Of a stretch of 64,000 nucleotides of DNA, positions 21,063-57,229 are shown in pieces. The stretch covers positions 1 through 64,000 of the forward strand of contig JAFRTJ010000047.1 in assembly GCA_017427185.1 (NCBI GenBank), given 5' to 3'. This stretch comes from Bacteroidaceae bacterium. Lineage in GTDB: Bacteria > Bacteroidota > Bacteroidia > Bacteroidales > Bacteroidaceae. Positions within the stretch are counted from its first letter, which is position 1, and each line of letters begins with the position of its first letter. The position numbers were made by a program, and so were the translations under genes. Under the pieces are notes generated by a model. It did not search any database. It was not told the DNA's origin and saw only the letters and a program-made list of their open reading frames with translations.

Positions 21063-21172
21063 GGGCAAATCAACGTGTTGTCTCATGCAAATCAACGTGT
21101 TGAGTCGGGCAAATCAACGTGTTGAGTCATGCAAATCAACGTGTTGTGTCGGGCAAATCAACGTGTTGTGTT
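21063..21172. repeat. 22-bp-phased array A (five tandem units)
   Basis: There are five 22-bp units with the shared core GCAAATCAACGTGTTG. AACGTGTT starts at 21072, 21094, 21116, 21138 and 21160. Units alternate between a GGG and an ATG lead base triplet. The array fills the gap between two convergent glycoside-hydrolase genes, and the last unit provides the stop codon and last four codons of the minus-strand gene. Confidence 0.95.
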
Positions 21173-43139: not shown

Positions 43140-44246
<1,107 letters not shown>

Positions 44247-44333: not shown

Positions 44334-44408
44334 GGGCGTTTAGCTCAGCTGGTTCAGAGCATCTGCCTTACAAGCAGAGGGTCGGCGGTTCGAATCCGTC
44401 AACGCCCA
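44334..44408 (+). tRNA. tRNA-Val (anticodon UAC)
   Basis: The cloverleaf is complete. Acceptor GGGCGTT (44334-44340) pairs with AACGCCC (44401-44407). The D-arm is GCTC...GAGC. The anticodon stem TCTGC/GCAGA encloses the loop CTTACAA, with TAC at 44369-44371. The T-arm is GGCGG TTCGAAT CCGTC. The discriminator is A and CCA is not encoded. Confidence 0.96.
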
Positions 44409-44502
44409 CATTCTTTTTCATAGATTTTTTAGAGTTAGTGTTTCTTTTGAAGTCGGTACCTGTTTGATTATGGTAACGGCTTTTTTTATTTCCTCTTCCT
44501 TC

Positions 44503-44576
44503 AACACGTTCTTCCCCCTGCCTCATCGTGTTCTTTTGTCAAGATTAACGTGTTCTTTCCGCCCTTTCTACTCGTC
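44503..44576. repeat. 22-bp-phased array C
   Basis: AACACGTT (44503), ATCGTGTT (44525), AACGTGTT (44547) and a degenerate TACTCGTC (44569) lie at exactly 22-bp steps. The first three are followed by CTT and then differ. Same architecture as arrays A, B and D. Confidence 0.7.
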
Positions 44577-44587
44577 AAAAAATTCCG

Positions 44588-44631
44588 ATTTCATCGAGGC
44601 GACTTTTCCAAAAACGCCCATTTCATCGAGG
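44588..44631. repeat. Pair of 12-bp direct repeats
   Basis: ATTTCATCGAGG occurs at 44588-44599 and 44620-44631 (32-bp step), directly after array C. Flanks are partly similar (TTTTCC / GTTTTG). No gene is seen here. Confidence 0.6.
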
Positions 44632-44680
44632 TTTTGCACATTTTGCCTAATGTAAAGATTTTTTGTTTAAGTAGTTTTGC

Positions 44681-44830
44681 GACGATGACGATAACGATGA
44701 CGATAACGATAACGATGACCGAATGTTGTTTCCGATTACTCGGATTACTCGGATAACTCGGATAACTCAGAATTCTCAGCTAACCTCTAACCCGCTAACC
44801 TCTAACCCGCTAACCTCTAACCCGCTAACC
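44681..44830. repeat. Three abutting tandem-repeat tracts (6, 9 and 15 bp units)
   Basis: 44681-44720 is a 6-bp repeat (GACGAT/AACGAT, about 6.5 copies). 44734-44778 is a 9-bp repeat (GATTACTCG and variants, 5 copies). 44779-44830 is a 15-bp repeat (GCTAACCTCTAACCC, 3.5 copies). The last tract ends where the truncated LD-carboxypeptidase frame begins. No gene lies between the tRNA and this point. Confidence 0.95.
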
Positions 44831-45320
44831 AGGCAAGGCTAGCGGCACACTCGTGGGCGGCAACCTCTGCACTTTCGCACCCAACCTCAGCACCCAAGCC
44901 GATGCTACGATGGGCAAAGACCTCATCCTCTTCGTGGAGGAGGTGGAGGAGTCGATGCACAACATCGACCGCCAGATGCGCATCCTCCAGATGAATGGCG
45001 TGCTCGATCGCTGCAAGGGCATTATTCTTGGCGAGTTCACCGACTGCGGCAACGAGTTCACCTACGAGAGTGTAGAGGCCATGTTCAACAAGATGCTGAA
45101 GGCGTACAACATCCCTGTGCTCTGCGGCTTCCCTGGCGGTCATGGCGACGTGAACCTGCCCCTCGTGATGGGCTCCAACGTCACCATCGATGTACGCACC
45201 GATGGAGCCACCCTGCAGTTCAACATCGACGGCAACCAACAGCAAGTGAACACAGCCGACATCACTGCTCCCGCTTCGCCCGCCTCCGTCCGCATGCGCC
45301 TGGCAGGAAAGATAGAATAA
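44829..45320 (+). pseudogene. C-terminal remnant of an LD-carboxypeptidase (peptidase S66) gene
   Basis: The frame opens after a TAA at 44826-44828 in the 15-bp repeat and runs 163 codons. It reads SGTLVGGNLCTFAPNLSTQA, then DLILFVEEVEESMHNIDRQM, RCKGIILGEFTDCGNEFTYE and VLCGFPGGHGDVNLPLVMGS. These match the C-terminal domain of S66 LD-carboxypeptidases, which trim the terminal D-Ala from peptidoglycan tetrapeptides. The catalytic Glu and His lie in this part (E in FVEEVEE, H in GGHGD), but the N-terminal domain with the serine nucleophile is absent. The product cannot be active. A GTG at 44853 could start a fragment, but this is unlikely to be a functional gene. Confidence 0.8.
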
Positions 45321-45455
45321 TACGAAACATACAAATAAAGAGGAAAAACGGTAGTCGGCAATGATTACCGTTCATCTTGTATGAAACCAATACAGGATAA
45401 ATGTTTTTATTTCATAAATTTCCATAATTTGTTTCTCTGTTTGGCAAAAAAGCAG

Positions 45456-45500: not shown

Positions 45501-46847
45501 ATGGAACTGGATTTGTTGACAGCTATATCCCCTATTGATGGTCGTTATCACGGCAAGACGGAGCCTTTATCCTTGTATTTCTCGGAGTATGCGCTCATCC
45601 GTTATCGCGTTCGTGTGGAGATTGAATATTTCATCGCCCTGTGCGAGTTGCCCTTGCCTCAGCTGGAGACTTTCCCCACGGAACTGTTTCCTCGCTTGAG
45701 AGCCATCTATCAGAACTTCTCGGAGGAGGATGCCCAACGGGTGAAGGATATAGAAATGGTGACCAACCACGACGTGAAGGCTGTGGAGTATTTCCTGAAG
45801 GAACAGTTCGATGCCTTGGGAGGCTTGGAGCAGTACAAGGAATTCATCCATTTCGGATTGACGAGCCAGGACATCAACAACACGAGCGTGCCCCTGAGCA
45901 TCAAGGAAGCGCTTGTGGATGTGTACTATCCGCAGATAGAGGAGCTGATAGGTCAGCTGGAGGATTACGCTGAGGAGTGGAAGGACGTGCCCATGCTGGC
46001 AAAGACGCACGGACAGCCTGCAAGCCCTACGCGTCTGGGGAAGGAGGTGATGGTCTTCGTGTACCGTCTGAAGCGTCAGATGGCGATGCTGAAGGCTTGT
46101 CCCATAGCTGCGAAGTTTGGTGGCGCTACGGGCAACTACAACGCTCACCATGTGGCTTATCCTCAGTATGACTGGCGCCAGTTCGGCAACCGTTTCGTTG
46201 ACGAGAAGCTGGGCTTGGAGCGTGAGGAATACACCACGCAGATAAGCAACTACGACTGCATGGGTGCCCTCTTCGATGCGATGAAGCGTATCAACACGGT
46301 GATCATCGACCTGAACCGCGACTTCTGGCAGTACGTCTCGATGGAATATTTCCGTCAGAAGATCAAGGCTGGCGAGGTGGGGTCGAGCGCGATGCCCCAT
46401 AAGGTGAATCCCATCGACTTCGAGAACAGCGAGGGCAATCTGGGCGTAGCGAATGCAATCCTGGTTCATCTGAGCCAGAAATTGCCGATAAGCCGCCTGC
46501 AGCGCGACTTGACGGACAGCACGGTGTTGCGCAACGTTGGAGTGCCCATCGGCCATATGGTGATCAGCATACAAAGCACGTTGAAGGGGCTCCGCAAGCT
46601 GGTGCTGAACCAGGAGGCCATCAATCGCGATCTGGATAACTGCTGGGCAGTGGTTGCCGAAGCTATCCAAACCATCCTGCGGCGCGAAGCCTATCCTCAT
46701 CCTTACGAGGCGCTGAAAGCCCTTACGCGAACAGGAAAAGGCATTGACGAACAGACAATCAAGGATTTTATCGAGGGGCTGAACGTAACAGAGTCCGTGA
46801 AGGATGAGTTGCGTGCCATCACTCCTCATAATTATACAGGTATTTAA
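45501..46847 (+). CDS. purB: Adenylosuccinate lyase
   Basis: The protein has 448 residues. The fumarase/aspartase superfamily signature GSSAMPHKVNPIDFENSEGN is at about 295-315. TSQDINNTSVPLSIKEAL and KTHGQPASPTRLGKEVMVFV are further conserved segments. PurB removes fumarate from SAICAR and adenylosuccinate in purine synthesis. It has its own promoter. The pseudouridine synthase gene starts 28 bp downstream, so the two may share a transcript. Confidence 0.97.
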   Translation: MELDLLTAISPIDGRYHGKTEPLSLYFSEYALIRYRVRVEIEYFIALCELPLPQLETFPTELFPRLRAIYQNFSEEDAQRVKDIEMVTNHDVKAVEYFLKEQFDALGGLEQYKEFIHFGLTSQDINNTSVPLSIKEALVDVYYPQIEELIGQLEDYAEEWKDVPMLAKTHGQPASPTRLGKEVMVFVYRLKRQMAMLKACPIAAKFGGATGNYNAHHVAYPQYDWRQFGNRFVDEKLGLEREEYTTQISNYDCMGALFDAMKRINTVIIDLNRDFWQYVSMEYFRQKIKAGEVGSSAMPHKVNPIDFENSEGNLGVANAILVHLSQKLPISRLQRDLTDSTVLRNVGVPIGHMVISIQSTLKGLRKLVLNQEAINRDLDNCWAVVAEAIQTILRREAYPHPYEALKALTRTGKGIDEQTIKDFIEGLNVTESVKDELRAITPHNYTGI

Positions 46848-48198: not shown

Positions 48199-48209
48199 AT
48201 AATTTAAGT

Positions 48210-48347
48210 ATTTGAAGTAGTCAGTAGTTCAGTAGATAAGTAGTTAAGCCGATAGTTTTGTCTGGGTGTAAACGCTTTGCACATAGTATTGGCTTAACTA
48301 CTGTCCGCATGACGAGCGAAGCGATATCTACTTAACTACTTAACTAC
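48210..48347. repeat. Nested inverted repeats between rluB-like gene and asnS
   Basis: GTAGTTAAGCC (48240-48250) pairs perfectly with GGCTTAACTAC (48291-48301). Further copies of AGTAGTT/AACTACT occur at 48217-48245 and 48329-48347 (CTACTTAACTACTTAACTAC). Several alternative hairpins are possible. No gene is seen in this 189-bp gap. Confidence 0.7.
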
Positions 48348-55627: not shown

Positions 55628-57157
55628 ATGACGAAAAGACTGATAGCAATCATCCTGTCGTGTCTGGCTTCATTAACTATCCTCGATGCAGCCAGCCGCA
55701 AATATGTCACCTACGAGGAATACGGCGCTGTGGGCGATGGGGTTCACGATGACCAGGCCGCCATCATCGCAGCTCACCAGGCTGCCAACGAGCTGGGCCT
55801 TCCTGTGCGGGCAACAGATGGGAAGACCTATTATATAGGTCAGGGTGACAAAGTGGCCATCATCCAGACAGACGTGGATTTTGGCAAAGCCAAATTCATC
55901 ATTAATGACGTGGTGACAGACACCCATTCGGCTCCCATCTTTCGTGTGGAATCCACGCAGAAAGCCGTTCAAATCACAGGAGTCCGCAACCTGAAGAAGG
56001 AGCAGAAGAATCTGGGGGTAAAATTGCCTGCCAGAAGTCTCGTCTTCGTGGAGAACAGCAAGAAGAAGGTCTACATCCGCTTTGGCCCCAACCAGAACAA
56101 CGGTACCCCTCAGAAGGAGGTCTTCATTGCCGACAAGAAGGGAAACGTAGACAGCTGTTCGCCCATCACGTGGGATTACGACGAGATTACCCGCATGACT
56201 GCCTTCCCAATCGACAAGAAGACGCTTACCATCAAGGGAGGTTTTTTTACCACCATTGCGAATCAAGCCGAATCAAAGTATGCCTATCGAGGAAGAGGCT
56301 TTGTGATCAATCGCTCCAACGTGAGGGTCGAGAACATGACTCACTATGTTGAGGGCGAGTTGGATCATGGAGCGCCCTATTCTGGCTTCCTCGTCTTCAA
56401 CTATTGTGCTGACGTCGTTGTGACTGATTGCCTTCTCACGCCTCACAAGACCTACCGCACCATTGGAAGTGCAGGCAAACCTGTCTCTATGGGCTCCTAT
56501 GACATGACGGCAGGCAACTGCGTGAATGTGCTCTTCCAACATTGCCGCCAGACCATCGATATTGATGACAGAGCCTATTGGGGACTCTTTGCCTCCAACT
56601 TTTGCAAAGGTCTTCGAATGGACGACATGATAATCTCCCGCTTCGATGCACACATGGGAGTCGCCAACGTCACGCTTACCAACTGCACCTTTGGCCACAT
56701 GGGCGTTCAGGCGGTAGGCTTTGGCACCATGCTGATGAAGAATTGCGAGGTGCATCGCAACACGTTCGTCTGGCTTCGCGATGATTATGGAAGCACGTGG
56801 GACGGCGAGATCATCTTCAAGAACTGTACGCTCAAGCCCTCTCCCGGCGAGCGTTATCTTACCCTCATCTCTGGCTCCAATCCAGGCACGCATGACTTCG
56901 GCTATGTCTGCCATTTGCCTCGCCGCGTTCAGGTGGAAGGCCTCACCATCGATGACTCAAACATCACCAGCGACTCCTATTCAGGTCCCTTCGTCCTTGG
57001 CGACTTCAGGCGCGATGCCTCAGCCCCCAATCTTCTTCCTTATCTGCCAACTGAAGAGGTGACCCTCAAAGGCATCAAAGTCCTCAGCGGAAAGGAGTTG
57101 AGACTCTCCTCAAACACTCAGCTCTTCAGCAAGACAAAGATGAGTCAAAAAAGGTAA
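55628..57157 (+). CDS. Secreted right-handed beta-helix protein (pectate-lyase-superfamily type)
   Basis: The protein has 509 residues from the ATG at 55628 (MTKRLIAIILSCLASLTILD signal peptide); the frame is open far upstream but overlaps the HD gene. It opens with the family-typical YVTYEEYGAVGDGVHDDQAA (Pectate_lyase_3/GH28-like entrance). Parallel beta-helix rungs follow (VRVENMTHYVEG, NVLFQHCRQTIDIDD, VTLTNCTFGHMGVQAVGFGT, EIIFKNCTLKPSPG). It probably cleaves or binds pectic or other plant polysaccharides outside the cell. The catalytic residues cannot be assigned, so a lyase or hydrolase activity is not certain. Its stop codon overlaps the first unit of array B. Confidence 0.8.
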   Translation: MTKRLIAIILSCLASLTILDAASRKYVTYEEYGAVGDGVHDDQAAIIAAHQAANELGLPVRATDGKTYYIGQGDKVAIIQTDVDFGKAKFIINDVVTDTHSAPIFRVESTQKAVQITGVRNLKKEQKNLGVKLPARSLVFVENSKKKVYIRFGPNQNNGTPQKEVFIADKKGNVDSCSPITWDYDEITRMTAFPIDKKTLTIKGGFFTTIANQAESKYAYRGRGFVINRSNVRVENMTHYVEGELDHGAPYSGFLVFNYCADVVVTDCLLTPHKTYRTIGSAGKPVSMGSYDMTAGNCVNVLFQHCRQTIDIDDRAYWGLFASNFCKGLRMDDMIISRFDAHMGVANVTLTNCTFGHMGVQAVGFGTMLMKNCEVHRNTFVWLRDDYGSTWDGEIIFKNCTLKPSPGERYLTLISGSNPGTHDFGYVCHLPRRVQVEGLTIDDSNITSDSYSGPFVLGDFRRDASAPNLLPYLPTEEVTLKGIKVLSGKELRLSSNTQLFSKTKMSQKR

Positions 57158-57229
57158 CACGTTGAAATGGCAGACACAACACGTTGAAATGGCAGACACA
57201 ACACGTTGATTTTGCCAACTCGACGTGTT
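57156..57229. repeat. 22-bp-phased array B with terminal hairpin
   Basis: AACACGTT starts at 57156, 57178 and 57200, and GACGTGTT at 57222, all at 22-bp steps. The first three units share AACACGTTGA. The last unit is in the opposite orientation, so CAACACG (57199-57205) can pair with CGTGTTG (57224-57230), followed by TCTTTTTT: a likely terminator for the beta-helix gene. Confidence 0.9.

Follow-up and report, generated by a model that had tools for sequence, protein, structure and literature searches.

The short tandemly repeated repetitive sequences of cyanobacteria (STRR) and the enterobacterial BIME/REP, which are mosaics of interspersed modules with palindromic units and a RAYT transposase as partner, are known systems against which the locus described here can be set. 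TAACTGA heptamer repeats, reported from Beggiatoaceae, cyanobacteria, and Bacteroidetes in part of PMC4679880, are a third one; a proposal cited there holds that heptamers favour polymerase slippage.

Our locus lies in a stretch of 64,000 nucleotides from a Bacteroidaceae bacterium (assembly GCA_017427185.1, contig JAFRTJ010000047.1, positions 1 to 64,000 of the forward strand), hereafter called the window. Its organization between trpS and purB is as follows:

43149..44246, + strand: trpS, the left anchor, an ORF named from sequence; 97.8% identical in amino acids in G073, with a dS of 0.66
44334..44409, + strand: tRNA-Val (TAC); Rfam RF00005 at 44334-44408 (72.8 bits), ARAGORN on L111
44410..44486, + strand: post-tRNA spacer with a T run at its end; aligns with L121/L122 to 44486, and also with G073
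44487..45445, no strand: extra DNA relative to L121/L122; homology of the L121 spacer ends at 44486 and restarts at 45446
44503..44676, no strand: mosaic segment, a degenerate AACGTGTT array of 22-bp period (44503-44554), then TTTCATCGAGG twice; matched in C71 and C72
44681..44719, no strand: 6/18-bp tandem tract (GACGATAACGAT...), from TRF
44734..44768, no strand: 9-bp tandem tract (GATAACTCG), from TRF
44779..44830, no strand: 15-bp tandem tract (GCTAACCTCTAACCC), from TRF
44829..45320, + strand: open reading frame that keeps the 3' half of ldcA, S66 C-terminal domain only (Pfam); DNA homology from about 44832
45321..45445, no strand: AT-rich 3' flank of the ldcA fragment, GC 0.31, from spacer alignment and composition
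45501..46847, + strand: purB, the right anchor, named from sequence; upstream DNA conserved from 45446

The initial annotation had reported three arrays with units of 6, 9, and 15 bp in a row, and TRF agrees: the array at 44681-44719 has a period of 6/12/18 bp, that at 44734-44768 holds 3.9 copies of a 9-bp unit (96% matches), and that at 44779-44830 holds 3.5 copies of a 15-bp unit (100% matches), itself made of CTAACCT (7 bp) and CTAACCCG (8 bp). The arrays were also said to follow each other without unrelated DNA. They are indeed consecutive, but linkers of 14 and 10 bp separate them; since similar linkers are present in the C71 copy, these seem to be part of the repeat element. Single arrays are common in this genome, as TRF finds 44 of them in 432 kb, window included (30 noncoding); the series as such is more than chance, since it is found again at another locus of the same genome.

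Indeed, the tracts, taken as local by the initial annotation, are one copy of a dispersed mosaic. Positions 44503-44676 are 88% identical to G000:C71:38207-38382, and positions 44531-44664 are 90% identical to C72:122-255; the C71 match goes on through the 6-bp and 9-bp tracts at 83%. There, the mosaic begins at the sufB stop codon and is located in the spacer before sufC (genes named from sequence). The 9-bp unit, also present in C71, recurs rotated and reverse-complemented at L166 3219-3265. Within the window, 8-bp tracts (TTAAGTAG and CTACTTAA) lie at 48204-48347, between a rluB-like gene and asnS (both named from sequence), and TTAAGTAG is also a word of the C71 mosaic.

Word counts extend this picture to the whole genome and to the genus. 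GATGACGATAACGATGAC, from the 6/18-bp tract, occurs 12 times in the genome (reversed control 0) and is found in 3 of 139 genus genomes, while CTAACCTCTAACC, from the 15-bp tract, occurs 11 times, 3 of them at this locus, and is found in 67 of the 139, with up to 112 copies (0-2 per genome for the reversed pattern). The AACGTGTT arrays amount to 239 tandem pairs in the genome, with a reversed control of 0; 25 of the 139 genus genomes are positive, four others having 59-213 pairs, for a reversed control of at most 3 in any genome. Across 1.15 Mb of the genome, 340 14-mers are common to at least 4 of 536 noncoding stretches, against 0 in 5 shuffles. Taken together, the 14-mer test and the word counts show that short tandem units are scattered over many noncoding loci more often than chance would allow. 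In our sample of this genome, the reversed-sequence control gave 0 for all words except CATTTAC, for which it equals the observed count (3 vs. 3) because tandem CATTTAC reads identically backwards; in the loci of other genomes, the 22-bp pattern had two control hits and CTAACC had one.

As for the 22-bp-period AACGTGTT arrays, the window contains three of them (21063-21171, 57156-57209, and 44503-44554), and other genus members carry different 22-bp units (L130-L132, L134-L136). Half of the array groups flanked by genes in our sample (17/34) lie between convergent genes and 1/34 between divergent ones, compared with a background of 71/373 and 93/373, respectively. CTAACC tracts are often paired in inverted orientation, the minus copy preceding the plus copy at a distance of about 30-120 bp (G045 C24 and C40, G058 C1 and C21, G061 C39, L172 17193-17278). 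Tracts can also be found within coding sequence: at L274 1019-2044 (G000:C57), 9-bp and 6-bp tracts run in frame inside one open frame, where they form low-complexity stretches, and those of L241 and L243 (G088) perhaps look coding as well. A small module flanked by repeat tracts, which we take to resemble DUF4248, HU-like, and "smalltalk" genes, lies at L149 800-2180 and L152 1-330.

The last tract runs into the gene fragment. The peptidase frame was said to start in the last repeat unit, and so it does: a TAA at 44826-44828, in the partial unit that closes the 15-bp tract (end at 44830), is followed by an open frame from 44829, which counts 163 codons, with a stop ending at 45320. DNA homology to the intact genes of six genus members begins at 44830-44832 in five cases and at 44850 in the remaining one; no more than a base or two, thus, separates the tract from the gene fragment. 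The frame matches PF17676, the S66 C-terminal domain, across the whole profile (E 5.5e-29) and no other family at E 0.001. It thereby resembles an S66 LD-carboxypeptidase (LdcA) in its complete C-terminal domain and in the Glu and His positions of the catalytic triad, which are kept according to the alignment of an intact homologue to 1zrs; it differs in lacking the N-terminal domain bearing the Ser nucleophile. The intact homologue, P0002 (387 residues, from L020), has both S66 domains and matches PDB 1zrs, 1zl0, and 6uuk; its N-terminus reads as a signal peptide that includes a lipobox-like cysteine.

The absence of the N-terminal domain with the nucleophile, also noted in the initial annotation, extends to the assembly as a whole. 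PF02016, the N-terminal domain, has no match there, compared with matches in 6 of 14 control genomes, and a search with P0002 returned the fragment itself plus three weak hits (E 0.0055 to 0.09), all of them confined to the first 50 residues of P0002. By both searches, the N-terminal half was found nowhere in the assembly of 79 contigs, rated 97.5% complete; an intact copy, for which a search elsewhere in the genome had been suggested, was not found in the assembly either.

One has to ask whether the remaining domain still serves a purpose. It could have been kept as a small functional protein translated from an internal GTG or ATG start: 155 codons are free of stops, the two triad residues are retained, and dN/dS is about 0.09 (0.087 against L020). 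In the 13 of 14 pairs with a finite dS, the values for the fragment range from 0.084 to 0.127, compared with 0.031-0.103 in 13 pairs of intact genes. The intact relatives being equally low, however, recent loss would explain these values, and the fragment appears to have been a working gene through most of its history. Amino-acid changes are moreover commoner on the window side than on the relative's side in all four comparisons (8:3, 10:4, 9:6, and 9:7), perhaps owing to a late relaxation of constraint. Nucleophile domain, signal peptide, and an evident start are all missing, and the frame opens inside a repeat unit. We, therefore, regard a retained small protein as highly improbable and the fragment as a remnant that is probably inert.

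The next question is whether ldcA belongs at this place. purB matched in 126 genomes, and we inspected the 30 loci with the best scores; leaving aside the locus of our own genome, these are 29 loci of the genus. ARAGORN finds tRNA-Val upstream of purB in 19 of them, and trpS lies upstream in 15, 14 of which also have tRNA-Val; neither trpS nor the tRNA was seen in 8, so the tRNA-Val/purB order is not universal. None of the 29 loci has an ldcA match. L121 and L122 align with the window to 44486 and again from 45446, so that 959 bp in the window stand against 44 bp there, although these boundaries of the extra DNA are approximate. With tRNA-Val at 19 of the 29 loci, ldcA at none, and some 960 bp of extra DNA relative to the two alignable ones, ldcA is probably not native here. 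The initial annotation had treated it as native, whereas the relatives indicate that 44487-45445 is an addition to a tRNA-Val/purB spacer; damage to a native gene in place is, for the same absence of ldcA from the loci inspected, disfavoured.

In G073, the same post-tRNA spacer contains a 6-bp tract along with a 22-bp array, whereas ldcA is absent from the 892 bp up to the contig end. Given that the G073 assembly is only 62% complete, lacks a purB match, and has a contig that stops before purB, a loss of ldcA in that genome is possible. This spacer bears on the idea of a joint arrival, in which a single mobile or copied piece would have brought both the half gene and the repeat mosaic. Such an arrival would suit a mosaic that is dispersed and whose tracts abut or sit within genes elsewhere, but G073 has parts of the mosaic without ldcA, and among the words searched, the 80 ldcA-bearing loci of the genome_contigs set (595 kb) yielded only 3 CATAGTT pairs, and the six in-genus ldcA loci none. 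Joint arrival is, thus, very unlikely in our view; the scarcity of pairs in the 80 loci also means that the repeat words are unevenly spread between lineages.

The distribution of ldcA itself is patchy. Within the genus, 10 of 138 other genomes match it, and six of these have open frames of 371-400 aa that are 69-82% identical. With a cutoff of E 1e-60, the family sample gives matches in 24 of 398 other genomes; all have frames between 361 and 623 aa long, two of which contain an internal stop. From 112 relatives, 80 ldcA loci were kept in the genome_contigs set, 79 of them with frames of 353-520 aa (three reach the contig start) and the last one, L093, cut by the contig start; tblastn found neither trpS nor purB in any of the 80. 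The best identity to the fragment is 92%, in L020, an uncultured Prevotellaceae bacterium, whereas the best match among the genus genomes searched reaches 82%, and the best of the family sample, 85-86%, lie in other genera. A protein tree was built from the window, 6 loci of the genus, 9 of the family, 2 distant ones, and 55 of the 80 in the genome_contigs set (72 rows after dropping short matches). In this poorly resolved tree, where 5 of 58 branches are starred, the fragment falls in an open 13-row group in which it alone carries the label of the window's genus, the rows of that genus being scattered. Patchiness, the identities of the best matches, and tree placement favour transfer, as far as such comparisons can tell. 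The GC3 of the fragment is 0.80, a value reached by 1.0% of 1544 pieces of 155 codons from the same genome; since trpS (0.72) and purB (0.70) are also high in the window, composition is a weak argument for transfer. A fixed ancestral neighbourhood of ldcA, sought in order to find a scar, was not found among 11 intact loci: their neighbours mostly differ, apart from two upstream genes shared by L143 and L144 and an outer-membrane-like gene upstream in L020 and L021.

We, thus, consider it likely that ldcA, encoding an S66 LD-carboxypeptidase that is a lipoprotein in intact relatives, was inserted whole or in part between tRNA-Val and purB, probably by horizontal transfer, into a spacer that also holds the interspersed-repeat mosaic. 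The 5' half would then have been lost through a deletion or an illegitimate recombination, from the last unit of the CTAACC tract to the start of the C-terminal domain. The resemblance of the fragment's dN/dS to that among intact pairs suggests that this decapitation is fairly recent, and the remnant is most likely a recent pseudogene lying beside dispersed repeats; the tract lengths themselves would vary by slippage. The initial annotation had offered slippage or recombination as the cause of the missing 5' half. A deletion or recombination at the tract could produce this loss, which is real in the assembly; slippage alone would not.

It had also offered the joining of two places by the assembly. 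A repeat tract could have led the assembler to fuse two loci or two strains by mistake, the CTAACC and GACGAT words occurring at many places in this genome and repeat tracts lying near several contig starts of the 79-contig assembly. Nevertheless, the outer sides (trpS and tRNA-Val on the left, purB on the right) are in the relatives' order and neighbours in many of them; CTAACCTCTAACCCGCTAACC, a 21-base stretch taken from the 15-bp tract, has one place only in the assembly (at most 1 mismatch; 3 overlapping matches there); the 5' half of ldcA was found on no contig; and no repeats are involved in the right-hand join, from the end of ldcA to purB. Even if the tract were the site of a false join, a tract abutting mid-ldcA would have to exist somewhere. 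An artefact is, thus, the less likely reading of the initial annotation, and an unlikely one in absolute terms.

If a tract supplied one end of the deletion, repeats might be sites of rearrangement more generally. With 217 of 834 ORFs mapped, we compared 83 testable spacers between 1.16 Mb of our genome and 0.92 Mb of G073; in this underpowered test, spacers were broken in 3/5 cases with tract words vs. 26/78 without (p 0.34), in 4/7 cases with a 22-bp array vs. 25/76 without (p 0.23), and in 6/11 cases with either vs. 23/72 (p 0.18). It is a rather doubtful, speculative view that a modular repeat system, made of 22-bp-period arrays with species-specific cores and of tracts with a partly shared vocabulary, may have colonised the spacers of the genus, spreading between loci, settling at gene ends or sometimes inside genes, and supplying deletion end points as at ldcA.

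The gene remnant would be ordinary decay, and the interest of the locus lies rather in its repeat mosaic. Among the members of this Prevotella-like genus, the copy number of the 22-bp arrays and of the dispersed short tandem repeats goes from 0 to more than 200, and these repeats could serve as a comparative system for how repeats spread and whether they provoke rearrangement. With BIME/REP, compared by layout alone, they share a mosaic of interspersed modules, and the 22-bp arrays favour convergent-gene spacers. With STRR and with the TAACTGA heptamers of PMC4679880, they share short tandem units that are mostly intergenic, present at many loci, and variable in copy number between genomes. 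They differ from both in that the window mosaic combines several adjacent words (6, 9, and 7 + 8 = 15 bp) and in that its repeats are patchy within the genus and linked with an array of 22-bp period. The window mosaic is a further case of the already known dispersed short tandem repeats.
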